From the NCBI GenBank assembly GCA_008015095.1, contig SSEV01000021.1, positions 1 to 64,000 on the forward strand: a stretch of 64,000 bases of DNA. Reading direction: 5' to 3'. Source of the DNA: Lysobacteraceae bacterium (GTDB lineage: Bacteria; Pseudomonadota; Gammaproteobacteria; Xanthomonadales; Xanthomonadaceae). Numbering within the stretch: position 1 is the first letter of the stretch; the number at the start of each line of letters is the position of its first letter. The notes beneath the pieces were generated by a model that was not told where the DNA came from, searched no databases, and saw nothing but the letters and a program-made list of their open reading frames with translations. Positions 5,562-19,259 of this stretch are shown here, one piece after another. A program made the position numbers and the translations under genes.

Positions 5562-6281
5562 TCAGTGACCTTTGTCACCGGCCCTCTCGCCGGCAGCCAG
5601 GGCGCGCACCCCCTCGGCGTCGGCGATCCGCACGCCCGAACGCGACAGTTCGACCAGCCCCTGCTCGGCCATCTGGCCCAGGGTACGAGTCACCATCTCG
5701 CGCACGCTGCCGATCTCGTCGGCGATCTGCTGATGGGTCATGGCGATACTGAGAAACCCCGCATCGGCGCGTTCGACCAAGAATTCGCCGATCCGGCGGT
5801 CCAGACGATGGAACGCCAAGCGCTCCACGCGCTCCATCAGCCCGGCCAGTCGCTCGGACAAGGTCGCGAACAGAAACCCGCGGAACGCCGGAGACTCGGC
5901 GATCATGCGCTGGAACAGCGACGCGGGCACCATCGCCAACCGCAAAGCGCCCTCGGCCGCACCATCGGCGCTGTAATCCGAACCACCGAGCAGACAACTG
6001 GAGGTGAGCACGCAGGTTTCGCCGCGCGCGACTCGATAAAGCACGATCTCGCGCCCGGCCTCGGAACGCTTGAACACCTTGACCGCGCCTTGCAACACCA
6101 GCGGCAGGCCGCCGCAACCCTGATGCTCGCCAAAGACCATGGCGCCGTCGCGGAACTCATGCACCGCACTCGCGGCCATCACCGCCTCACGTAACGCCGC
6201 AGGCAGTTCCTGCAACAGGGGATACGCCGCACTCAGGGTCTGCGCCAAGGCCTGCTCGTGCTGCGCCCCGCCCATCGTCAT
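5562..6281 (-). CDS. Crp/Fnr family transcriptional regulator
   Basis: 239 aa; N-terminal cNMP-binding-like barrel, C-terminal HTH (LSIAMTHQQIADEIGSVREMVTRTLGQMAEQGLVELSRSGVRI). Confidence 0.88.
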   Translation of the reverse strand: MTMGGAQHEQALAQTLSAAYPLLQELPAALREAVMAASAVHEFRDGAMVFGEHQGCGGLPLVLQGAVKVFKRSEAGREIVLYRVARGETCVLTSSCLLGGSDYSADGAAEGALRLAMVPASLFQRMIAESPAFRGFLFATLSERLAGLMERVERLAFHRLDRRIGEFLVERADAGFLSIAMTHQQIADEIGSVREMVTRTLGQMAEQGLVELSRSGVRIADAEGVRALAAGERAGDKGH

Positions 6282-6306
6282 ACAAACCGCTCCGGGCGGT
6301 AGGGCG
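6278..6306. repeat. 29-bp direct repeat, left copy (tcatacaaaccgctccgggcggtagggcg)
   Basis: Identical to 8306-8334; on the minus strand it carries …PYRPERFV* codons plus GGAG and ATG of the crp-like gene. Confidence 0.97.
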
Positions 6307-6535
6307 CCGAAGTGCGCTCAAAGCCTAGAGAAACTGACATAGGATCAATCGAATCCTGAGCACAGGGCCGGAGGGGCATCGTCTCACAAGAGGCTGAGAT
6401 ATTGCATTGTCTTGAGGGGCGACTGGCACGGATTGACAAACATTTCACCTTGATTGGAAGCTGAGCCCTTGATTCCGTGCCCGCCGCATCCCAAAGCGGC
6501 TCATCTTCTCCGGACCAGCCTGGAAAGAATAACAA

Positions 6536-8251
6536 ATGGACCCCAGTTCAGGATCGTTTTCGTTGAAAGTTTGGGCGGTAAAACAGCTTCTGAACTTGTA
6601 CAACAAGTTGCCCATTACTTGGCAAGAAACTATGCAACGTTCCACGCCATCGATGTTTATGTTGGCCGCCCTTGTCTTCGCCTTTGTGGCCTCAGCCTTC
6701 GCAGTGTTTGGCAATGATATGTGGTTGCTACTGGTCGCCATTACGGCCGTTTGCTCGCTGATATCGTCCGCACTTTTTTGGCGTAGGCACAAGATTCTCA
6801 ACGAAGTCTTGTGCATCGAAGATTGGAACTTCGGACAAGAGACTTCCGAGAACGCGAAAAAACACCTGGCTTCCGCGAAAAAAGATATCCATGTGATGTG
6901 TTTCGGTTTCGGAAAGTACGCAAACACTCTAGATGTCAGCCAAGGCAGCGGTGAACAACCCCACTTGAAAAACGCATTCGAACGAGTTCTTGAACGGAGC
7001 GGAAAAATACAAATCCTTGCCATGGATCCTTTTTCCAAGGATCTGCCTGATTACACGGCCGGAGACAGCCCTGAAACAAGGGAAGCACAAGCAAGGAACC
7101 GCAGAAAAGAGATGATCAAAAATCTATGGCGACTGGCAGGAATTTCCGATGAATTCAAGACAAACTGCATTGAAATTCGGACCTATGCGCAAGCCACCGA
7201 AGCGCCACAGACATCGTTCCGGCTGTTTATGTCCGACAGTGAAAGGATCTTTCTTTCGATGTATCAGGCCCGATACCGTAAGGAAGACGCCAAGGAGAGA
7301 ATCAACGAAATCGTCATCAAGAGCCCTACCGGGCCCAAAGACAACGACAAAGGGCAGTACAACCGTTCGCTGTTTGCGGGATTCAAACGACTCTTCGAAT
7401 ACCAGTGGGAAATCGCGCGCCCTATGCAGTTCCGCACATTAGCGCTGGACCTCAACACTACAGCCCTATCGGAAGACGAGATTACGCGCGTCGTATCGGC
7501 ACTGGACGACTACTGTCTCGCGATCCACAAGAAGACTTTTGACGCATTCCTAAAAAGCGGAAAAGTGATCGCAGCGGCGATCGCCGGCAAAGACAGCATG
7601 GCTGCGATCGCGAACAAGATCGATTCTGGACAATGCGAACTCGTCGTGCCGATTATTGTCGTTGTTCCTACCGAAACAGGACAAGAACATAAACGGCTGG
7701 ATACGCTCGCCAATCTGAGAAAGGCGCTCAAGAACAAAGACTGCCTGACCCCGGCAATCGTTCTGCATGATGACGGAGGCATTTGGCGGGAGGTCAACCA
7801 GGACTTTTCCGAATATTCCGACACCATCATTCCCGCCCCTTGTGTCGGATGCCACTTCTACCTGCACCTGATCCGCTCCATGATCGCCGCGAAATTGGGA
7901 ATCAAGCGCGTCATTTCCGGTGATCGCGAAAAACACGGGCAGAAAATAAAACTCAATCAAACAAAAGGGGTATTGGACAGCCTGATCAGCAAGAGCAAGA
8001 CCAAATATGGGATAGAACTGGAGCTCCCATTGCGCGGAATTCAGGACGACCAGGAGATATGGCGAATCCTGAGAAATTTCAACCTTACCGGCGAGAACAT
8101 TCAAGATACGACCTGTCTTTTTTCAGGAAAAGGCCTGATCGTCGACAACGACGCCCGTATCACGCACGCTAATAATTATTTGGAAAGAGTCGTTTCTGCC
8201 CACTACGACGTGGCAACGAAAATCTACGGATCCGCCGAACAATCCGCATGA
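6536..8251 (+). CDS. Locus A: membrane-anchored sensor-like domain fused to PP-loop ATP-pyrophosphatase-like domain
   Basis: 571 aa; two N-terminal TM segments (FMLAALVFAFVASAFAVF, WLLLVAITAVCSLISSALF), a middle region with PLD-like pattern, then IAAAIAGKDSMAAI (SGGxDS-like PP-loop) and CVGCHFYLHLIRSMIAAKLGIKRVISGDREKHGQKIKLNQTKGVLD. Family assignment by eye. Confidence 0.75.
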   Translation: MDPSSGSFSLKVWAVKQLLNLYNKLPITWQETMQRSTPSMFMLAALVFAFVASAFAVFGNDMWLLLVAITAVCSLISSALFWRRHKILNEVLCIEDWNFGQETSENAKKHLASAKKDIHVMCFGFGKYANTLDVSQGSGEQPHLKNAFERVLERSGKIQILAMDPFSKDLPDYTAGDSPETREAQARNRRKEMIKNLWRLAGISDEFKTNCIEIRTYAQATEAPQTSFRLFMSDSERIFLSMYQARYRKEDAKERINEIVIKSPTGPKDNDKGQYNRSLFAGFKRLFEYQWEIARPMQFRTLALDLNTTALSEDEITRVVSALDDYCLAIHKKTFDAFLKSGKVIAAAIAGKDSMAAIANKIDSGQCELVVPIIVVVPTETGQEHKRLDTLANLRKALKNKDCLTPAIVLHDDGGIWREVNQDFSEYSDTIIPAPCVGCHFYLHLIRSMIAAKLGIKRVISGDREKHGQKIKLNQTKGVLDSLISKSKTKYGIELELPLRGIQDDQEIWRILRNFNLTGENIQDTTCLFSGKGLIVDNDARITHANNYLERVVSAHYDVATKIYGSAEQSA

Positions 8252-8305
8252 TGGCGCGCCCGCGCGAGCGTCCGCTTCACGCGAAGGCAACGCACACCGC
8301 TGTCC

Positions 8306-8334
8306 TCATACAAACCGCTCCGGGCGGTAGGGCG
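8306..8334. repeat. 29-bp direct repeat, right copy (3' end of dadA-like gene)
   Basis: Identical to 6278-6306; repeat-to-repeat distance 2,028 bp. Confidence 0.97.
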
Positions 8335-9572
8335 TCGGATCGAGCGCGGGCGCGCGGCCAGCCATCAGGTCGGCGAGCATTTGCGCGCTGCCTGTGCTCA
8401 TGCCCACGCCCATCATGCCGTGACCGGTGTTCATCCATACCCGGCGCAGCCCCGGCGCACGACCGATCAATGGCATATCGTCACGGCTCATCGGCCGCCA
8501 GCCGTACCAGTGCTCGCGCACTTCGGGTCCGACCGGTGCGTGCAGGTATTCGCGCGCGCCACGCTCCAACGCGCCGATGCGGCGTGCGTTGAGCGTTTCG
8601 TCGAAGCCGGAGAACTCCATCGTGCTGCCGAGCCGGAATCCGTCCTGCCATGAGGTGACGCAGACCAGACGTTCGCGCAGCACAAGCGGCCGTTTCGGCA
8701 CCATGTCCGGTTTGCTGTAGGTAATCGAATACCCTTTGCCCGGTTGGATCACGCGTTTCATCCATGGCAGGCCGATGGCTTCGGCCGAGCGCGCGCTCCA
8801 CGCGCCCATGGCCAATACCGCGTTGCGTGCGCGGATTTCGCCCTGATCGGTGTAAACGGCCACGCCCTCGCGATCCTCACGCAGGGCATGCAGCGGGCAA
8901 TGCTCGATGATCGCTCCGCCGCGCGCTCTGATCACGCGCGCCAGTTCGGCCAGATAGCGATCGGGGCGTAATGCGGCATCGCCGGAAAAACGCAGCGCGC
9001 CAGCCACGCCTGCCTTGACCGCGGGCTCCTGCGCTTCGTAGGCCCGTCCATCGATCACTTCCGTCGCCACGCCCAATTCGCGCAGCAGCGGCAACTCGCG
9101 CTGCCCGTGCTCGAACGCACGCGGGTTGCGGAACACGTAATCCTCGCCTGCTTCGATGAATTCGCAAGCCAAATCGTAACGATCCACCCATTCGCCCAAA
9201 CGCCGCCGCGAATCGTCAAGCAACGCGTATTTGCCGATGGCGCTGGTTCGCCAGTCGCGCGTGTTGCAGCGGCGGGCGAATCCGGTCAACCAGCCCCACA
9301 ACACCGGATCGAAGCGCGGCTGGATGTACAGGGGCGCATCGGGCGTGAGCATCCAACGCAAGGCCTTGAGCAGGACGCCTGGCGCGGCCAGAGGCGGGGC
9401 ATGACTCGGTGTGATCGTGCCGCAATTGCCGTGCGAAGCCCCGCCGCCGATAGCGCCAGCGTCGATGACGCAGACGCCGCGCCCGCTTTCCAGCAGCGCA
9501 AGTGCGGTCGCCAGGCCGCTCACGCCCCCGCCCGCAATCAGAACATCCGCAACCGTCGTTCTTCCCCCGCAT
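8306..9572 (-). CDS. dadA: FAD-dependent D-amino-acid dehydrogenase (DadA-like); apparent 1-nt frameshift near N-terminus
   Basis: ORF 8306-9523 (GTG) lacks an upstream start before the FAD motif; removing one C from the C5 run at 9564-9568 gives MRGRTTVADVLIAGGGVSGLATALALLESG from ATG at 9572. Confidence 0.8.
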
Positions 9573-9689
9573 CCTCACGAACATCCCGCGCGCGCTGCGG
9601 GACACGATGATTGCGATTCTACGGCCCACGGGAGCTGCGCGCATGTTTCGCGCCGCGCCGCTCAGCCGTTGTCGCCGCCATGTCTCAAA

Positions 9690-10937
9690 TCACGCTCGAC
9701 GCATCGCTGGCCATTGCAGGTAGGTCGCCGCGCGCCACAGCCATTCGGCCGGACCATAACGGAAGCGCGCCAGCCACCAGCGGCTGACAAGAACCTGCAG
9801 CGCGAACAGGGCCAGCGCGAACGCCGGCTGCCACGCGCGCGGCAGTCGCTCGAAGTATCCGAGGCCGTAGCCATAAAAAATCAACGTGCAGATCACCGAC
9901 TGCCCCAGATAATTGCTCAGCGCCATCCGCCCCGCTGGCGCGGTCAGCCGCAGGGCCGGGGCCAGCGGCGAAGACAATCCACGTAAAATCCAGGCGAGAT
10001 AGCCCAGGCACATCAACAACCCACCGCACATCGCCAAGCCGCCACTGACGCCGCTCACCAAATCAAGCCGATCATAGGCCTGCGTGGGCACCATCGCGAA
10101 CGAGCACGACATCATGCCGAGTCCCACCGGCACGCCGATCCAGCGCAGACCTGCGAACAGTCGCTGAAAATCCTGTGGCCGTTCGATCGCCCCGCTGCGC
10201 ACGAACCAGGCGCCAAGCAGGAACATGCCGAGAATCTGCCCGCCGATAAACATCAGCAAAGCCAGATTGAATACCGCGTCCGTCGCCCGCTGCGCCACCG
10301 CATCCCAATAGCCGCCGCTGCCATACGCCACACGCTGCGCATCAAGCAACTGCCGCATTTCGTCGCCCTGCTGCTGCAGGGCCTTGCTCATTTCCGCAGC
10401 GATGGTCGGCTCCAGGCTGGCGAGCCAGCCAAGCACGCCAAATCCCACCATCATCGCCACCGCGAACAGATAGCAACCGATCGCCCAATAAGGCAGTTGC
10501 CGCGATGGAACACCACGAAAGATCACCAGCATCGGGAAAGCGATCAGTGCGTACGTGGTCAGGATATCGCCCGACCAGATCAACAGGGCATGGATCAGGC
10601 CGATCAGCAGCAACGCCAGGATCCTACGCAGATACAGCATGAAGAATGGTCGCCCTGCGACTTCGGCGCGATGGCTCATCACCGCGAACCCCATACCGAA
10701 CAGCAGCGAGAACAGCAGGTAGAACTTGCCCTGCACCAGGACGTAGATCGCGGCGTCGACGAGTCGGTCGGCCCCATGCAAGGCCGGGTCGAGACCGGTG
10801 ACCGCCGCCAGCAGCGGCCCGACAAAGGCCTCGATATTCATCAGCAGAATGCCGAATAGCGCCACGCCGCGCAGCACATCCATGGCTTCGATGCGCTCGG
10901 CGGCGGGAATCGGTTGGAGCGACTCAGTCGAGCTCAT
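9690..10937 (-). CDS. DUF418 / YeiB-like multi-spanning membrane protein
   Basis: RIEAMDVLRGVALFGILLMNIEAF…; C-terminal GRMALSNYLGQSVICTLIFYGYGLGYF…RYGPAEWLWRAATY, characteristic of the YeiB/DUF418 family. Confidence 0.9.
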   Translation of the reverse strand: MSSTESLQPIPAAERIEAMDVLRGVALFGILLMNIEAFVGPLLAAVTGLDPALHGADRLVDAAIYVLVQGKFYLLFSLLFGMGFAVMSHRAEVAGRPFFMLYLRRILALLLIGLIHALLIWSGDILTTYALIAFPMLVIFRGVPSRQLPYWAIGCYLFAVAMMVGFGVLGWLASLEPTIAAEMSKALQQQGDEMRQLLDAQRVAYGSGGYWDAVAQRATDAVFNLALLMFIGGQILGMFLLGAWFVRSGAIERPQDFQRLFAGLRWIGVPVGLGMMSCSFAMVPTQAYDRLDLVSGVSGGLAMCGGLLMCLGYLAWILRGLSSPLAPALRLTAPAGRMALSNYLGQSVICTLIFYGYGLGYFERLPRAWQPAFALALFALQVLVSRWWLARFRYGPAEWLWRAATYLQWPAMRRA

Positions 10938-11081
10938 GGCGAAATCCGGAATCGGCAGGCCGTCTATGTTCTCGCAAACGGCGCCCACCGCAAGTGCGGG
11001 ATGCGAAGAACGACCTGATGGCGTCCATCGCTTGGCTTCGCCGCATGGGAGCATCGGCCACCGCCGTCGGCGGAATCGCGA

Positions 11082-12131
11082 TCAGGCTGCGATAATGATC
11101 GGGCGCTCGCCTCTTTCGTGCATTTCGCCGATAACGAACAAGGCTTGACCCTGCCGTTGCGCCAGAGACGACACCGCAGGCAAAGCATCGGCGGCAACCG
11201 TGATCAGCAAGCCGCCATTGGTCTGCGGGTCGCACAACAGCCGCAACTTCCATTCGGGAATGGTCGGACTTGCCGACACGTCCGCGCCGTAATGCGCATA
11301 GTTTCTTTTGGCCCCGCCGGTCTGGCGACCGCTCTCGGCCAAACCCACGGCCGCTGCCATCAGAGGAATTTCGGAGATGACGACGCGCGCGGTCGTTCCC
11401 GCGCCTAGCGCCATCTCGTGCAAATGGCCGATCAACCCGAAACCGGTGACGTCGGTCATGGCGGAAACGCCCTCGACTCCCGATACGATCGCGCCGAACG
11501 AATTCAACGTCGTAACGATACCCATCGCTGCCGCGTAGTGAGGGGACGTCTCCTCGAAACCCGCGATGCGATCCTTGATGGCGGACACTACAAGACCGAC
11601 ACCGATTGGCTTGGTCAGCGCGATGACATCCCCGGGGCGGGACGTGCTGTTCCTCAACATCCTCCGCGCTTCGACCTGCCCGATCACCGACAGACCGAAA
11701 ATCGGCTCCGACAAGTTGATCGAATGCCCACCGGCGATGGGGATTCCCGCCTCCGTGCAGGCCGATCGCGCGCCGTCCAGCACCTTCCGGATGACGTCAT
11801 CGTCGAGCTTGTCGGTCGGAAATCCCAGGATGGCGGTGGCCAACAACGGTTCCCCTCCCATCGCATAGATATCGGATATCGCGTTGCACGATGCGATCCG
11901 TCCCCACAGCAGCGGATCATCGACGATAGGTGGAAAGAAATCGAGCGAAGTCAGCGCGACCTGTCCGTCACGGATGCGGAAAGCCGCGGAATCCTCGTTT
12001 CCCTCGCGACCGACGAGCAACCACGGCAACGGCTCGCTGCGATCAGGCGCGCCGCCCAATAATTGTTTCAGATGCCCGGGCGCGATCTTGCAACCGCAGC
12101 CGCCGCCCATGGTGAGATCGGTCAATCGCAT
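11082..12131 (-). CDS. selD: Selenide, water dikinase (Cys-type)
   Basis: From ATG 12131: MRLTDLTMGGGCGCKIAPGHL…; TSLDFFPPIVDDPLLWGRIASCNAISDIYAMGG; DVTGFGLIGHLHEMA; DPQTNGGLL. Confidence 0.93.
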   Translation of the reverse strand: MRLTDLTMGGGCGCKIAPGHLKQLLGGAPDRSEPLPWLLVGREGNEDSAAFRIRDGQVALTSLDFFPPIVDDPLLWGRIASCNAISDIYAMGGEPLLATAILGFPTDKLDDDVIRKVLDGARSACTEAGIPIAGGHSINLSEPIFGLSVIGQVEARRMLRNSTSRPGDVIALTKPIGVGLVVSAIKDRIAGFEETSPHYAAAMGIVTTLNSFGAIVSGVEGVSAMTDVTGFGLIGHLHEMALGAGTTARVVISEIPLMAAAVGLAESGRQTGGAKRNYAHYGADVSASPTIPEWKLRLLCDPQTNGGLLITVAADALPAVSSLAQRQGQALFVIGEMHERGERPIIIAA

Positions 12132-12584
12132 AGCACCCTTCCTTGTTTGCGCTCGAAGTGCACGAGCCGTCAATACCTGATTATTTACGGATCGACTTCG
12201 TCGATACCGATGCGCAGTCTCAAAGCGCCACCGCATCGCGAATGTTACCGGAGGAATGCTACCGGACAGTCGCCCCATAGCGACACACTGCCGCGCTGAA
12301 CCGTCCATATGGCATCGGAATCGCATCCAAGGCGTCGTTCGAATTCCGGTCTCAGTTCGCCTTGCGCCGGCATGGCATCGGCCCGCCCCCGCACAAAAAA
12401 TCATATGGCGTTGTTTTAACAGGAATTTGCTTACCCGCCGAACGGTGCGATAGAATGCAACCGCATTGATGGCTAACAGCCATACGGCCGATGACCAAAG
12501 ACGTTTCGGATCGAGAGACTGTCTGACATCGATACGATGGCCATCATGGTTTGCCGCCATTTGCGGAACGATCCATTCGCAGAC

Positions 12585-12735
12585 CGTTGAACACGGTTTG
12601 TTCGCGCAGTCACGGAGGGCTGCGCCGACGAAGCAAGCGCGTAAGCGATTGATTCGTCGCGAGCGAATCCGGGGATGCGCCGGACTCGCGACTTGTAAAA
12701 CGCACAGGACGTGTGTGTTTCAACAGTCTGTCAGG
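12585..12735. repeat. Dispersed noncoding repeat copy R1
   Basis: accgttgaacacggtttgtt…ggctgcgccgacgaagcaagcgcg…aaacgcacaggacgtgtgtgtttcaacagtctgtcagg; imperfect but collinear with 15069-15297. Confidence 0.75.
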
Positions 12736-12984
12736 GGGAATTGGATGACCCGTCGGGAACAATCGCGCTGGCGCTTCCGCCAACCGTATTTTGGCTTATC
12801 GGACTCGAACCGAGCTTTTGCCGTCTCTGGAATTCCCCGCCTTGCGCTCGTATTGAACGGAGCGGTTGCAAAAGACCCTGGCGGCGGCCTCTCGCCTTTT
12901 CATCCAGGCGGGCCACATCTCGCGAAGGCATAACGCGATAAGCGCGCCGCGACCAAAGTCCCTCTAATCCGCCATTCAATTCTC

Positions 12985-13563
12985 ATGGCTCGATCACACA
13001 TGCGCATCGGCATCGTCCACGGCAGGTTCCAACCCATTCACAAAGGCCATCTCGATGGCTATATCAAGCCTGCCTGGCAACAGTGCGGTCAGCTGATCGT
13101 CGGCATCACGAACCCCGACCCGACGCATACCCTTCCCGACCCTGTCAATGTTTCCCGCACCGCGGCGCAGAACAACCCCTTGACTTTTTACGAGCGCTTG
13201 TCGCTGGTGCAAACCGCATTGAGCGGGATAGGCATCGACAGCGCCGATTTCCGCATTGTGCCGTTCCCGATCAATTTCCCACAGTTGCTGCGCTACTACC
13301 TGCCCGATGGCGCAACGCATTTTCTTACCATTTTCGACGAATGGGGCAGGCGAAAACGCGCTTTTCTCGAACAGCACGGCCACAAGGTGCACGTATTGGA
13401 AGAATCCGACATCAACAAGAAGAAAATTTCTTCGACAGAAGTGAGAAACAGGATTCTGAAAGGACAACGCTGGCAGGAACTGGTTCCGGAGCCTTGCCAT
13501 CACCTGCTCAGCTCGATGGACATCAAAGACCGCATTCAAAGACAAAGGGAGATTGGACGTTGA
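12985..13563 (+). CDS. Locus B gene 1: NadM-like (archaeal-type) nicotinamide-nucleotide adenylyltransferase family protein
   Basis: IGIVHGRFQPIHKGHLDGYI (GRFQPxHxGH) and KKKISSTEVRNRIL (ISSTxxR). Confidence 0.88.
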   Translation: MARSHMRIGIVHGRFQPIHKGHLDGYIKPAWQQCGQLIVGITNPDPTHTLPDPVNVSRTAAQNNPLTFYERLSLVQTALSGIGIDSADFRIVPFPINFPQLLRYYLPDGATHFLTIFDEWGRRKRAFLEQHGHKVHVLEESDINKKKISSTEVRNRILKGQRWQELVPEPCHHLLSSMDIKDRIQRQREIGR

Positions 13564-14405
13564 ACCGTTTGGCCTCGCTATCCATCCCTATACTTCTGGC
13601 GATCCTTTCAGAATGGATCTCTAGCTTGCTGCCAGTACCCAATGAACTTAAGCCGTTTTCTTGGCTTGCCATCCTATCTCTGTCATTGATTGCATTGCTT
13701 CATCTCAACCATAGATGGTTCATCGCCTACTTGAAGCTGTACACGGTCGCTAACATCCGCGGCCTATGGAGCGGCGAAGCGCTGAACAGATCGCTGACGC
13801 GCGACTACGAGAATTCGTCCCGCGTCGACATCAAAGTGACCCGCGGCTTCGGGCTGTTTCTTGAAAGCGACGGGGTCTTCAAGAAGCTGATTCTCGACCG
13901 GAAGAGCAAAGAAGACCGGAAGGTCAGAATTCTCCTTCATTACCCATGCTTGGAATCCGACCATTTGATCAGACGCGCCGAGGCGAACAACAAACTGCCG
14001 ACAGACTATGTCGACGATTTGTTCTGGGTGCTGAGAGCGCTGTTCCTCCACAGCCGCGATCCAAACAACAAAGAAACCATCATCATCCGCTTTTATTTGT
14101 CGGACAAGGATTCGGAATGGAGATTCTATGTCCTGGAGGACGATGACGGAAAAAAGACCTTGTATTTCAATCACTACAACAAATCCACGTCCGGGGCGAA
14201 ATCCAGGATGTTGAAAGTGCTCGCGGGGAACTACTCCCTATGCGACGAATTGGTTAATACGTTCAATGAATTGTTCGACAACGAGTCTCACGAGATCGTC
14301 ACCAACCACCAGAATCCTTTGTTATCAAAATCCGACCTGTGCGGACACCCCGGATGCAAAGAAGCAATCACCCAATCATTCCAAAAGCATTTTAGAAATG
14401 GCTGA
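13560..14405 (+). CDS. Locus B gene 2: two-TM protein with cytosolic sensor-like (possibly PLD-like) domain
   Basis: TTG start overlapping the TGA of gene 1 (tTGA); TM SIPILLAILSEWISSLL and FSWLAILSLSLIALLHL; soluble part VRILLHYPCLESD…IIIRFYLSDKDSEWRFYVLEDDDGKKTLYFNHYN. Confidence 0.75.
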   Translation: MNRLASLSIPILLAILSEWISSLLPVPNELKPFSWLAILSLSLIALLHLNHRWFIAYLKLYTVANIRGLWSGEALNRSLTRDYENSSRVDIKVTRGFGLFLESDGVFKKLILDRKSKEDRKVRILLHYPCLESDHLIRRAEANNKLPTDYVDDLFWVLRALFLHSRDPNNKETIIIRFYLSDKDSEWRFYVLEDDDGKKTLYFNHYNKSTSGAKSRMLKVLAGNYSLCDELVNTFNELFDNESHEIVTNHQNPLLSKSDLCGHPGCKEAITQSFQKHFRNG

Positions 14406-15012
14406 CACTATCGAAATCGTCAAAGACGAAGTCTTGTATTCCGGCAAGCTGCTCGATCTCGTCGCGCGAACCCTTCGCGTATCCAAAAGCGGGAATTCCT
14501 TCGAATACGCTATCGAAGTCGCAAGACGCCCGCCGGGAGTGCGCCTGCTCGTCAAGCGCGACTCCCGTTATCTGCTGCTGAAAGAATTCCGCGCCGAGTT
14601 GGGCCGATGGGATTACCGCCTTGCCGGGGGCAAGGTGTTCGAATCGCAATCCGACCACTTGGATTTTCTCCGTTCAGGCGAAGATCTTGGTCGAAGACTG
14701 CTGGCGGCCGCGACCGCCGAAGCGCGGGAAGAGCTTGGGATCGCTATCGAGTCCGCGCACCTGTTTCGGAAATCCAGCGCCGGCGCCACCGTAGATTGGG
14801 ATCTTTATTTCTTCGAGGTAGACGAATTCACGCCCCTTGAATCCGGCCCTCAACCGGAAGCAACCGAATTGCTGAAAGCGGAATGGCGCACGCAGGAAGA
14901 GGTTCTGCAACTGATCAAAGACGATCTTTTTTCGGAAGATCGGTCGATAGGCGTTTTTTTGCAGCACATGCTAACGAGCGGGAAATCCTTGATATGCGTC
15001 GATCCAATCTGA
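14398..15012 (+). CDS. Locus B gene 3: Nudix hydrolase
   Basis: 8-nt overlap with gene 2; WDYRLAGGKVFES…LLAAATAEAREELGIAIESAHLF is a Nudix box with insertion; WDLYFFEVDEFTP. Confidence 0.85.
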   Translation: MADTIEIVKDEVLYSGKLLDLVARTLRVSKSGNSFEYAIEVARRPPGVRLLVKRDSRYLLLKEFRAELGRWDYRLAGGKVFESQSDHLDFLRSGEDLGRRLLAAATAEAREELGIAIESAHLFRKSSAGATVDWDLYFFEVDEFTPLESGPQPEATELLKAEWRTQEEVLQLIKDDLFSEDRSIGVFLQHMLTSGKSLICVDPI

Positions 15013-15068
15013 CAAGTGCGGCTACTGAGAGGAAATGACACCGTGAACTGCAACGCGGTCTTGATTTA

Positions 15069-15297
15069 GCAAACCGCTGAAAAACGGTCTGCTAGCGCAA
15101 CCGGAGATGGCTGCGCCGACGAAGCGAGCGCGTCAGCGATGGATGCGTCGTGAGCGAGTCCGGGCATGGCCCAGACTGGCGAATTGGCTGCACCGGCAGG
15201 CGCCGGTGCGCAGCCACGCTGGCCGCGAAGTGGCGAGCCGCATGGATGCGACAAGTCAAAAATGCACAGGAAGTGCGTTTTTCAACAGCCTGCCAAA
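15069..15297. repeat. Dispersed noncoding repeat copy R2 (with extra internal segment)
   Basis: aaaccgctgaaaaacggtctgctag…ggctgcgccgacgaagcgagcgcg…aatgcacaggaagtgcgtttttcaacagcctgcca; same orientation as R1. Confidence 0.75.
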
Positions 15298-15345
15298 TCG
15301 CATCCAACGTCTTTTCCCTACGCGCATATTTCAAGTTTCAAGCAG

Positions 15346-15966
15346 TCAATCCAACCCCTCGATTCCTTGCGCATGCTGCTCCGCTTCCAACTTCAATATC
15401 CGCTCGCGCAATCCCCATCGCTCAATACACTCCGCGACAGACGGGCTGACCATATCTTTCCATCGGTCATCTCCTTGCTTGATCAGCCGCCTGATAGTTC
15501 TGCCGTCGAATCCCATATGTCTGCTGTCCGGGATCACGGAAACGTCGTAACCTTCGTTGCGCAAGCGCCTTATTTTTTCGTCGTTCCAATCGTAAAGCCT
15601 CGTCGTGACGCAAGTCACTTCTTTCGGGATCGAATGTTGGATCAACGATGGAGTATCGATCGGGAATGGCGCGAACTCGATTCTGGCGCTGTCGATACCG
15701 AGGTCATCGCAACATCGGCGGACCAAGATGATGCGTTCCAGATAATTCAGGGGATTTGCCGTAGGCAGAACCCTGTGTTCGACACCAGGGTAGACATCCG
15801 AAACCGGCGTCGCTGCTGCGATTCCGACCACCACGTCATCCCAACCTCTCAGGCAAGCCTGGAGATACTCCGCATGTCCCAAATGGAACGGCTGGAACCT
15901 GCCATGGATACATGCTATTCGACGAATGTTTTGAAATCCCACGAATTTCCCTCGCACGAACGCCAC
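15346..15966 (-). CDS. Locus C gene 2: second, divergent NadM-like adenylyltransferase
   Basis: IACIHGRFQPFHLGHAEYLQACLRGWDDVVVGIAAA…ANPLNYLERIILVRR; C-terminal MGFDGRTIRRLIKQGDDRW. Overlaps the upstream CDS by about 50 nt, or less if a later start is used. Confidence 0.85.
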   Translation of the reverse strand: MAFVRGKFVGFQNIRRIACIHGRFQPFHLGHAEYLQACLRGWDDVVVGIAAATPVSDVYPGVEHRVLPTANPLNYLERIILVRRCCDDLGIDSARIEFAPFPIDTPSLIQHSIPKEVTCVTTRLYDWNDEKIRRLRNEGYDVSVIPDSRHMGFDGRTIRRLIKQGDDRWKDMVSPSVAECIERWGLRERILKLEAEQHAQGIEGLD

Positions 15967-16841
15967 ATCTGTTCGAAATAATCCTTCATCGCACCATAGA
16001 GTTCGAGGTCGTGCGCCCTGTTTTCCGAAGCTGAGATCTCGATATTCGGATTACTGAAGTTATCGTATTCGTTCTCGCCGAATTTCGCGGCGGTCTCCGT
16101 ATATTGACCGAAAAGGCATGATTTTCCATTCAGAAAAATCAATCTGAAGATGGGCTTCTGCGTGTAAAAGCGGACTTCGACATTCCCCGCATAGTTGCTC
16201 TTGATCAACTTGATCCTGGCCAAAGACGCGGTGATTCTTCCTCTGAATTCGTTTTTCGCCAGCCCTCTTCTCTGCGCTGTGTCCGCAACCCACTCAGCGT
16301 CGGGGTGAATGAGCAACAGCCTCACCGGTTGATGCGCGCTTCCGCACCTGTTGACCACTCCCCTGAAGACATCGACGTCCCTGGTGAGCTTATCGGCCCC
16401 GACCCCCATCATCATAAATTCCTTTGCAGCCGATTCGAGGATTTTCCTGTAATCGGCCATTCCAGGCTTGAGGGTCACGCCATGAATCCCCAGCACGTTG
16501 GCTTTCTTCGCGAACGACACGAGCGCTAGCCAGGAATAAGCAAAACGAAGGGCGTAAAACATCAAAGGGACAAAACTCAATATCACAATTACAACCCCAA
16601 GCCCACTGACCTTGTTGTCCTTCGTGACGGAATAAAGGCACAGCGCGGGGAACAGTGAAACGCCCAAAAAGCCGAAAAAGTCCTTATACAAGACTAGTTT
16701 TTGGTTTTTGTTTCTGAGGTAGCGGTCAAGCCATCGCAGAACGACGAGCAGCGCCGTCTGTATAATCAAAAAGAACAGCGATGCATAAAGATTCTGGGTG
16801 ATCGGAACGGCCCAATCTTCAGGTGTCCCCGGATAGTTCAT
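15915..16841 (-). CDS. Locus C gene 1: multi-TM protein with sensor-like (possibly PLD-like) cytosolic domain
   Basis: ATG at 16841 preceded by GGGGGAG; three N-terminal TM segments; FMMMGVGADKL…VRLLLIHPDAEWVADTA…VEVRFYTQKPIFRLIFLNGKSCLFGQYTE…MKDYFEQMW. Confidence 0.75.
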   Translation of the reverse strand: MNYPGTPEDWAVPITQNLYASLFFLIIQTALLVVLRWLDRYLRNKNQKLVLYKDFFGFLGVSLFPALCLYSVTKDNKVSGLGVVIVILSFVPLMFYALRFAYSWLALVSFAKKANVLGIHGVTLKPGMADYRKILESAAKEFMMMGVGADKLTRDVDVFRGVVNRCGSAHQPVRLLLIHPDAEWVADTAQRRGLAKNEFRGRITASLARIKLIKSNYAGNVEVRFYTQKPIFRLIFLNGKSCLFGQYTETAAKFGENEYDNFSNPNIEISASENRAHDLELYGAMKDYFEQMWRSCEGNSWDFKTFVE

Positions 16842-16973
16842 CGCTCCCCCTGATGCTCGCAGCGCAGTTGTTTCAGCCGAGACGCGCACTCCGTTCGGAC
16901 GCTGTCGCCAGACGTCTCCCGGCACATCCAGCCGTGGCGCGAGTCGGCAGGATACGGCTCCTCCTCGCGCAAA

Positions 16974-16998
16974 AGAAGACGGCCCGCGATGGGGCCGT
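16974..16998 (-). terminator. Rho-independent terminator of slyD
   Basis: On minus strand GACGGCCC-CATCGC-GGGCCGTC followed by TTCTTTT. Confidence 0.75.
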
Positions 16999-17033
16999 CG
17001 GATCGCCGCATGGCGGGCATGAAGCCCGTTGCG

Positions 17034-17513
17034 TCAGTGATGATGCCCGCCCTCGCCGTGCACATGACCGTGTTCGATTTCCTCGGCGCTGGCTTCGCGC
17101 ACATCGACCACTTCGATCTCGAAATGCAGATCCTTGCCGGCCATCGGGTGGTTCAGATCGACATCGACCACGCTCATGCCGACCTTTTCGATGGTGACCG
17201 CGCGCGGGCCGAAGTTGGTTTGCAACAGGACTTGCATCCCCGGGATCAGACGCTGCTCGCCGAAATGCTTTTTCGGGATGCGCTGAGTCAGGCCTTCGCG
17301 GCGTTCGCCATAGGCTTCGGCCGCCGGCACGTCGACTGCGAAGCTGTCACCGGCCTCGCGATCCTGCATCGCGTTCTCCAGGCCCGGGATGATCTGACCA
17401 TGGCCGATGAGGATCGTCAGGGGATCGCCGCCTTTGGAGCTTTCGCTGGCGGGCTGGCCGACTTCGGAAACGCTGTAGTGGAAGCGGACGACGCGGTCTT
17501 TTTCGATTTTCAT
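17034..17513 (-). CDS. slyD: FKBP-type peptidyl-prolyl isomerase SlyD-like
   Basis: MKIEKDRVVRFHYSVSE…LIGHGQIIPGLENAM…AYGERREGLTQRIPKKHF…NHPMAGKDLHFEIEVVDVREAS; His-rich tail. Confidence 0.93.
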   Translation of the reverse strand: MKIEKDRVVRFHYSVSEVGQPASESSKGGDPLTILIGHGQIIPGLENAMQDREAGDSFAVDVPAAEAYGERREGLTQRIPKKHFGEQRLIPGMQVLLQTNFGPRAVTIEKVGMSVVDVDLNHPMAGKDLHFEIEVVDVREASAEEIEHGHVHGEGGHHH

Positions 17514-17563: not shown

Positions 17564-18166
17564 ATGCGGCCAAGATCGACCGCGATGAGAACGAAGGCCG
17601 CGCATTATCCGCACTCCATCGGCCCGGCGCCATTGTCCCGGCCGATGGCCTGGTGCGGCCTGCTCACACTGTGCGCCCTCAGTTCGCTGACGGGCGGTTG
17701 CGGGGGCGGCGATCAGGTCCGTAGGCCCACTCCTGCCGCCGACTCGACGGCGCATCGTGGCTGGCCGGCGATTGAGGCGGAAGATCCTGCCGCGGCCAAT
17801 GCCGTATTGATGCGGGCGATCGGCCTGGTCGGCACGCCCTATCGTTATGGCGGCAACACCCCCGAAAGCGGCTTCGATTGCAGCGGGCTGGTGCATTACG
17901 TCTTTAGCGACACGCTCGATCTCAGACTACCGCGGACTTCGCGCGAACTGGCCCGTATCCAGGGGCCGCAGATCGCTCCGGAGCGGCTGGCCCCAGCCGA
18001 TCTGGTGTTTTTCGGCAGCGGCGGCGAGGTCAGCCATGTCGGCATTTACGTCGGAGAGGGGCGGTTCGTACATGCCCCCAGCACAGGCGGCACGGTCAGA
18101 CTCGATCACCTCGATAGCGCCTATTGGCGGGATCACTACACAGGAGCGAAACGGGTTCTGAAATAG
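17564..18166 (+). CDS. NlpC/P60 (C40) family cell-wall peptidase
   Basis: GTPYRYGGNTPESGFDCSGLVHYVF, LPRTSREL, HVGIYVGEGRFVHAPSTGG. Confidence 0.92.
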   Translation: MRPRSTAMRTKAAHYPHSIGPAPLSRPMAWCGLLTLCALSSLTGGCGGGDQVRRPTPAADSTAHRGWPAIEAEDPAAANAVLMRAIGLVGTPYRYGGNTPESGFDCSGLVHYVFSDTLDLRLPRTSRELARIQGPQIAPERLAPADLVFFGSGGEVSHVGIYVGEGRFVHAPSTGGTVRLDHLDSAYWRDHYTGAKRVLK

Positions 18167-18277: not shown

Positions 18278-19018
18278 GTGACGACCCCAGCCTTTGGCTT
18301 CGGCCGCCCTTCCGACATCCACCCACGTGGTTTTTCCAAGACCACCGTCGCCGTGGCGCGCTTCGCATGCGCCGGACTGCTGGTCTTATGCGCCTTGCCC
18401 GTATGGGCGCAGAAGGCCACAAACGACTCGCGTGACCCGCTGGAGATCAGTCCAGGGCTGATCGCGCCGGTCGGCGGCGCCATTTTCCATAATCCGATGT
18501 CGTTGCCGGAACGGACCCTGCGCTTCGCGAAAGACATCGACGCGCTGTTCCAGGCCGCCAGCGTGCCCGGCGAAGTGAAGCCCGATGAGGCGCAAACCGA
18601 AGAGGCCACGCCGACCGAAGGTCCAGTCAAACGCATGCTCAAGCGCGCGCTGACCCTGCTCGGCACGCCTTATCGCTGGGGCGGCACCAGCCCGGAGCGC
18701 GGCTTCGATTGCAGCGGACTGGTCGGCTATGTCTTCCGCAATAACCTCGGCATCGAACTGCCGCGGATCTCGCGCGATATGGCCAACGTCGGCCAACTCA
18801 TCCTCGACCGCAATGCTTTGATCGAGGGCGACTTGGTGTTTTTCAGCCGCCGCGGCAAAAACGTCGACCACGTCGGCATCTATCTCGGCAACGGTCAGTT
18901 CGTGCATGCGCCGCGCACCGGCAAGGATGTGGAGATCGCCAACCTCGCCACTGGCTACTGGAGCCAGAAGTTCCTGAAAGCCCGTCGCGTCGCAGAGCCG
19001 CAGACCACAGCGGAGTGA
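18278..19018 (+). CDS. NlpC/P60 (C40) family cell-wall peptidase
   Basis: GTPYRWGGTSPERGFDCSGLVGYVF, HVGIYLGNGQFVHAPRTGK; GTG start. Confidence 0.92.
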   Translation: MTTPAFGFGRPSDIHPRGFSKTTVAVARFACAGLLVLCALPVWAQKATNDSRDPLEISPGLIAPVGGAIFHNPMSLPERTLRFAKDIDALFQAASVPGEVKPDEAQTEEATPTEGPVKRMLKRALTLLGTPYRWGGTSPERGFDCSGLVGYVFRNNLGIELPRISRDMANVGQLILDRNALIEGDLVFFSRRGKNVDHVGIYLGNGQFVHAPRTGKDVEIANLATGYWSQKFLKARRVAEPQTTAE

Positions 19019-19046: not shown

Positions 19047-19073
19047 AGGGCCGCGTTCGCGGCCCTGATTTTG
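19047..19073 (+). terminator. Rho-independent terminator (agggccgcgttcgcggccct + gatttt)
   Basis: Perfect stem followed by T-rich tract, downstream of NlpC/P60 stop. Confidence 0.8.
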
Positions 19074-19128
19074 TGTGCGCTGCCGCGTTCGCGGCCCTGA
19101 TTTTGTGTGCGCTGCCGCGTTCGCGGCC
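19050..19128. repeat. 32-bp tandem repeat, ~2.5 copies (gccgcgttcgcggccctgattttgtgtgcgct)
   Basis: Copies at 19050-19081, 19082-19113 and partial 19114-19128; duplicates the terminator hairpin. Confidence 0.95.
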
Positions 19129-19259
19129 AGGTTGTTTCCGGCCGCCGTTCTTCAGGTGGCGTGCAATCTCGACCTACATCCCAGATGACGGTGACGGACT
19201 TGCGCCCCACCCTGCACTGCGCGATGCTCCGGCATAGTCCGAATCCGGGGAGATCGGCC

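Follow-up and report, generated by a model that had tools for sequence, protein, structure and literature searches.

The window, which is the whole stretch of 64,000 nucleotides that was analysed, belongs to a metagenome-type host assembly (254 contigs, 75% complete). At locus A, an open reading frame extends over 6536-8251 on the forward strand, with an ATG at 6536 and the stop codon at 8249-8251, and encodes a protein of 571 aa, exactly as claimed in the preliminary description of this DNA. GC contents at the three codon positions (0.52/0.38/0.59) were typical of coding DNA, a GGAAAG-like ribosome site was located upstream of the ATG, and the gene as a whole had a GC content of 0.50 compared with 0.64 in the host. 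The protein is laid out as a transmembrane (TM) hairpin, a middle domain and then a PP-loop domain (approx. aa 320-571). Features were assigned as follows, all positions referring to the window.

6275-6309, no strand: left 35-bp direct repeat, a second copy of the 3' end of a dadA-like gene and boundary of the insert (94% identical to 8303-8337)
6310-8302, forward strand: body of the insert, GC about 0.50, one gene (GC drop; dadA-crp spacing in the genus)
6536-8251, forward strand: gene of the 571-aa protein (open reading frame with coding-type codon GC)
6641-6784, forward strand: predicted two-helix TM hairpin, approx. aa 36-83 (hydropathy; topology from the positive WRRHK after helix 2)
6803-7435, forward strand: middle soluble domain, approx. 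aa 90-300 (similar to a domain of locus C)
7493-8185, forward strand: predicted PP-loop ATP pyrophosphatase domain of the CxGCH family (family profile, hhalign, AlphaFold, Foldseek)
7580-7597, forward strand: predicted IAGKDS phosphate-binding loop, aa 349-354 (corresponds to [AS]G[RKAQ]DS of the family; between a strand and a helix)
7841-7852, forward strand: CVGC with C436 and C439, the first two presumed cluster ligands (invariant in the family; spacing)
7916-7930, forward strand: SGDRE, aa 461-465, in the position occupied by the GH/GD loop in thiolating PP-loop enzymes (C-to-G distance of 26 in the family and in TtcA)
8114-8116, forward strand: C527, the third presumed cluster ligand (invariant in the family; +91 from C436, as in NcsA)
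8303-8337, no strand: right 35-bp direct repeat, the native 3' end of the dadA-like gene (8306-9523, reverse strand; repeat comparison)

The boundaries of the insert were defined by comparison with the genus. The inner 29 bp of the two 35-bp repeat copies are exact, with 0 such matches expected by chance. By blastn, 34-101 bp separate dadA from the crp-like gene in seven of the ten genus genomes compared, corresponding to an empty site, and the locus A gene was present in none of the ten. The empty sites together with the direct repeats indicate that the 3' end of dadA was the entry point of a piece of approx. 2028 bp with one gene. The approx. 2.0-kb insert contains no integrase. The single-gene insert is probably mobile, and it was likely integrated in a site-specific manner by a recombinase provided from outside the insert.

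Hydropathy peaks overlapped across aa 36-83 and were read as adjacent TM helices at approx. 37-58 and 63-82, joined by a GNDM turn. The positive-inside rule, applied to WRRHK after helix 2, suggests that both soluble domains of the protein are cytoplasmic. Hydropathy and fold supported the architecture proposed earlier, namely a HUP-fold PP-loop domain and two TM helices with an extra domain in between. Searches with the whole protein gave only weak fragment matches, both in Pfam, NCBIfam, PADLOC, PHROGs and PDB sequences and among phages, plasmids, viral contigs, 148 relatives and 368 other genomes of the class. The combination of a PP-loop domain with a membrane hairpin was not found elsewhere in the data searched; a PP-loop enzyme tethered in this way appears to be new, the enzyme class itself being already known.

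All motifs reported previously for the C-terminal half were recovered, i.e. IAAAIAGKDSMAAIANKI (I349-S354), the hydrophobic strand after it, and APCVGCHFYLHL...VISGDREKH (C436, C439, G462). An AlphaFold model of the PP-loop domain, calculated with the family alignment described below, had a mean pLDDT of 79.5 and a pTM of 0.81, and placed the phosphate-loop motif between the strand at aa 344-348 and the helix at aa 352-363. The best match of the model in a Foldseek search of the PDB was YcfA of Erwinia amylovora, a protein of 6-thioguanine synthesis (E 2e-7, TM 0.57-0.65 by query length), followed by matches to ThiI, QueC, MnmA, TtuA, LarE, TilS and NAD synthetase (NadE); the named top matches among viral models were likewise PP-loop enzymes. 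YcfA is 11-14% identical to the locus A domain and, as far as its PDB title shows, is not membrane-bound. HUP-fold matches were present, and the first beta-alpha loop contains the motif, the two points on which the preliminary description had made its assignment depend; that the domain has the HUP/PP-loop fold is near certain. QueC (PF06508), which had been put forward as a candidate family, was not borne out: there was no Pfam match, and both the QueC zinc signature C(x)8CxxCxxC (PMC13329287) and SGGxDS are absent from the protein.

The family of the domain was searched for with the DNA pattern CxGCH-60N-[ST]G[DE]R[DE] (20-residue gap), using one genome per species for 85,488 bacterial and archaeal species. 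The scan returned 48 stretches, 31 of which encode one clear protein family; the remainder look like chance. The members are free-standing proteins of approx. 250-330 aa from Desulfobacterota, Actinobacteria, Nitrospirae, Coatesbacteria and others, with the consensus AIVEIAGRDSxAA...PTYxYTGTEYG...GSPxFWxALNGR...PCxGCHLYLHxxRIPLAxxLG...IISGERExHxGxVKxNQ...PLRxI...CVLSGNYR, and for none of them was an accepted match obtained in Pfam or NCBIfam, nor a sequence match in the PDB. Alignment of the family profile with the locus A protein by hhalign gave a probability of 99.8% (E 2.2e-30, 207 columns), and the family HMM found the locus A gene at E 1e-42 with no match in 368 other genomes of the host class. 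Membership of the C-terminal domain in this so far unnamed bacterial three-cysteine PP-loop family is near certain. Unlike the locus A protein, the free-standing members that were read have neither TM helices nor a middle domain.

Locus A and the free-standing family (e.g. L067:4941-5810) have all core motifs in common. At only 23-29% identity, 24 of the 30 family-invariant residues are kept in the locus A protein: G351, D353, S354, A356, A357, E380, G382, L398, W417, C436, G438, C439, H440, H444, R447, S461, G462, R464, E465, H467, K472, N474, Q475 and C527. The Glu before the loop is changed, Asp replaces the Glu of SGER, and a Tyr, a Trp, an Asn and a Pro in or near the C-terminal part are altered as well, a pattern that points to a conserved core with drift at peripheral sites, which perhaps face the substrate. 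A literal SGGxDS does not occur in the protein; GxDS is kept and the first two positions are changed, as throughout the free-standing family, which follows the pattern [AS]G[RKAQ]DS (IAGRDS, ISGADS and IAGQDS, with IAGKDS in locus A). Since family members carry the same type of motif, the departure from SGGxDS is a family trait and not decay of the locus A copy, and the term 'degenerate', used previously for the loop, does not hold, nor is the previously proposed 'atypical' ATP binding supported, the motif being the family norm in a protein with this set of invariant residues. The wording 'degenerate' would suggest a pseudo-enzyme, the PP-loop domain acting as a binding module only. The missing Glu ahead of the loop and the missing family-conserved Tyr, Trp, Asn and Pro would fit such a protein, but retention of GxDS, the three cysteines, SGxRE, H467 and KxNQ at this low identity argues for selection on catalysis, and an inactive enzyme is considered improbable.

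The three cysteines of the domain (C436, C439 and C527) are spaced 0, +3 and +91 and align with family-invariant cysteines; in the free-standing members the third is at +87/+88 as against +91 in locus A. The locus A intervals are exactly those between C142, C145 and C233, the three cysteines that bind the [4Fe-4S] cluster of Methanococcus maripaludis NcsA in its crystal structure (PMC10067955). A CXXC-C signature and the associated cluster chemistry have been described for cluster-type LarE (PMC9283937) and for methanogen ThiI, Ncs6 and TtuA (PMC5372739), and in TtcA proteins from related genomes a CxxC was found together with further cysteines at +88 and +91. In the locus A protein, the free-standing members and TtcA alike, the Gly of the GH/GD/GE loop comes 26 positions after the first Cys, and the likeness to a CxxC...G[D/H] region that had been noted before can be specified, the region corresponding to that of thiolating PP-loop enzymes. 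At the profile level, no link to TtcA (0.1%) or TilS was detected by hhalign. As a sequence-level link to these two enzymes is lacking, the proposed chemistry rests on fold and cysteine spacing. The preliminary description left the third cysteine, the free-standing family and the direct-repeat insert unmentioned.

These data can be combined into a working scheme. The protein would be anchored in the inner membrane by the two-helix hairpin, its soluble domains probably being in the cytoplasm, and the C-terminal domain would be a catalytically competent PP-loop ATP pyrophosphatase of the three-cysteine (CxGCH...C) family. The IAGKDS loop would bind the ATP phosphates, and a small molecule or nucleic acid would be adenylylated with release of PPi. 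A [4Fe-4S] cluster would be held by C436, C439 and C527, with its free iron carrying a labile sulfide, and this sulfide would displace AMP to yield a thiolated product, the route taken by TtuA, NcsA, TtcA and cluster-type LarE. The middle domain may tune or read the reaction at the membrane. Binding of a [4Fe-4S] cluster is probable, whereas sulfur transfer is given slightly less than an even chance. On balance we lean towards the complete statement, that of a membrane-tethered, ATP-using and probably cluster-dependent enzyme. The data directly show the gene, the TM segments (by hydropathy), the family and fold of the enzyme domain, its retained active-site residues, the spacing of its cysteines, the limits of the insert and the unoccupied site in relatives; we infer that the protein binds a cluster and transfers sulfur, how it is oriented in the membrane, that it is regulated, and that the locus serves as accessory cargo. 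The lost Glu before the loop, together with the Tyr, Trp, Asn and Pro changes, was counted against this reading, as were the ApgM-like neighbours of most free-standing relatives, which do not by themselves suggest thiolation.

Compared with known systems, the [4Fe-4S] tRNA thiolases TtuA, Ncs6-NcsA and TtcA have the same fold and a CxxC plus third Cys at matching spacing, and TtcA also has the same C-to-G distance; they are soluble with SGGxDS (read here in TtcA), whereas the locus A protein has IAGKDS and is predicted to be membrane-bound, and TtcA has no detectable profile similarity to it. Cluster-type LarE has the PP-loop fold and the CXXC-C signature in common with locus A but an SGGxDS loop (PMC9283937) in place of IAGKDS, and no LarA, LarB or LarC genes were seen beside the locus A gene. 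In the QueC-type defence proteins QatC and Cap9, the PP-loop fold has been reused in phage defence; a search of PADLOC-DB found no Qat or CBASS partner genes for locus A.

The surroundings of the relatives bear on a purely metabolic role, in which the locus A protein would be a membrane-localised version of the free-standing family carrying out the same metabolic step, with no part in signalling or defence. An ApgM-like gene adjoins the free-standing member in 16 of the 24 loci inspected, often with a TIM-barrel gene (mostly named by eye); NCBIfam confirmed the ApgM type for two and gave one sub-threshold CbiR match. These neighbours look metabolic and suggest that the free-standing form performs a metabolic step, and the core residues kept in locus A would agree with conservation of that step. 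The locus A gene itself, however, has no ApgM-like or CbiR-like neighbour, is alone in its insert, was absent from all ten genus genomes, and encodes an added TM hairpin and middle domain. A metabolic-only role is regarded as unlikely and, like the inactive enzyme, was ranked below the favoured cluster-dependent enzyme, the confidences given here not being mutually exclusive. Across the 31 family loci (L038-L084), the ApgM-like and often CbiR-like TIM-barrel neighbours form an uncharacterised operon, mainly in Desulfobacterota. SelD/SelB/YedF-like genes, recognised by eye near three of these loci (L064, L068 and L075), and the SelD gene of the window were judged a coincidence.

The middle domain of the locus A protein (aa 90-300) resembled a domain of a TM protein at a second locus, locus C (BLASTP E 8e-4, 0 of 2000 shuffles), and by this comparison the two are taken to be homologous. 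A domain at a third locus, locus B, was weakly similar to those of A and C (49 and 64 of 2000 shuffles), which is suggestive of relatedness. The AlphaFold model of the middle domain had a pLDDT of 41 and was discarded. A profile built from the A, B and C domains matched only these three places in the source genome (75% complete), all within 10.4 kb, and had no match in 320 other genomes of the class; relatives were likewise absent from 308 genomes of the phylum to which an actinobacterial locus belongs and from viral contigs, phages and plasmids. For DUF5919 (PF19319), the locus C domain scored 15.2 bits, below the Pfam cut-off of 23.5, locus A gave no match, and a survey of 299 genomes yielded sub-threshold fragments only. 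A phospholipase-D-like fold, considered as a candidate, found no support in this analysis. Beyond the similarity to locus C, no homolog, fold or ligand was found that would justify the label 'sensor' attached to this domain beforehand, and a sensor role is a guess and unproven.

In each of loci B and C, which lie 5-10 kb from locus A, a 2TM protein is paired with an NMN adenylyltransferase.

12985-15012: locus B, low GC; NadM-type NMN adenylyltransferase (12985-13563), TM protein (approx. 13560-14405) and NUDIX hydrolase (approx. 14395-15012) in overlapping order
15346-16925, reverse strand: locus C, low GC; TM protein with a locus A-like middle domain, and a NadM-type NMN adenylyltransferase gene

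In locus B the TM gene follows the NMN adenylyltransferase gene with a stop/start overlap (TTGA) and itself overlaps the NUDIX gene; in locus C the TM gene and the NMN adenylyltransferase gene overlap by 48 bp. The two NMN adenylyltransferases are 30% identical (E 1e-26), and loci A, B and C are all of low GC. This arrangement raises the possibility of a writer-reader module, in which each locus would pair a 2TM reader with a HUP-fold AMP-transferring writer (the PP-loop enzyme in A, an NMN adenylyltransferase in B and C) and locus B would add a NUDIX eraser. A signal that contains AMP, perhaps produced in response to phage infection, would then act on the membrane, in the manner of the TM-pair effectors of nucleotide-based defence. 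Homology of the A and C middle domains, coupling of the TM proteins to NMN adenylyltransferases by gene overlap in B and C, confinement of the profile matches to 10.4 kb of the source genome and the low GC of all three loci are consistent with such a module. There is also precedent for its parts: effectors built from a TM pair and a CARF-like domain are known (Cap1, PMC12642688), and QueC-type PP-loop proteins act in phage defence (PMC13279940, PMC13329287). Against it, the locus B domain is only weakly similar to the other two, the pairing has no outside examples, no recognised defence gene was seen nearby, and none of loci A, B and C matched a PADLOC-DB family at E values up to 10. The writer-reader arrangement is the most interesting rival and overlaps with the favoured enzyme reading without excluding it, but is considered doubtful, and any defence role of locus A is unproven. 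Less probable still, though conceivable, is that the three loci represent different forms of one so far undescribed module for signalling or defence at the membrane. Its HUP-fold AMP-transferring writer (thiolating PP-loop enzyme or NMN adenylyltransferase) would be fused or coupled to a shared membrane reader, once with a NUDIX eraser, and the membrane would be the target of a new nucleotide or thio-nucleotide signal.

The analysis brings to light an uncurated three-cysteine PP-loop family with a clear set of motifs and with operon partners (ApgM-like, CbiR-like). If the membrane-tethered form is a regulated conflict protein, it would join QatC and Cap9 as another case in which the PP-loop scaffold has been reused, and the nearby NMN adenylyltransferase loci would offer a first handle on the signal.

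Several further observations were made in the window. Two genus genomes lack the stretch 9547-17034, in which a DUF418-like membrane gene, selD and loci B and C are located; in both, dadA is directly followed by DNA matching the window from 17034 onwards, so that this stretch, too, is variable. A dispersed repeat of approx. 200 bp, with 46 matches in the source genome, flanks locus B (12576-12695 and 15050-15340). Two adjacent NlpC/P60-like genes, named by eye, have a 142-bp stretch in common (17812-17953 and 18643-18784, 74% identity), likely by local duplication, and a short tandem repeat with a 32-bp unit, in two perfect copies and one partial copy, is located at 19050-19145.
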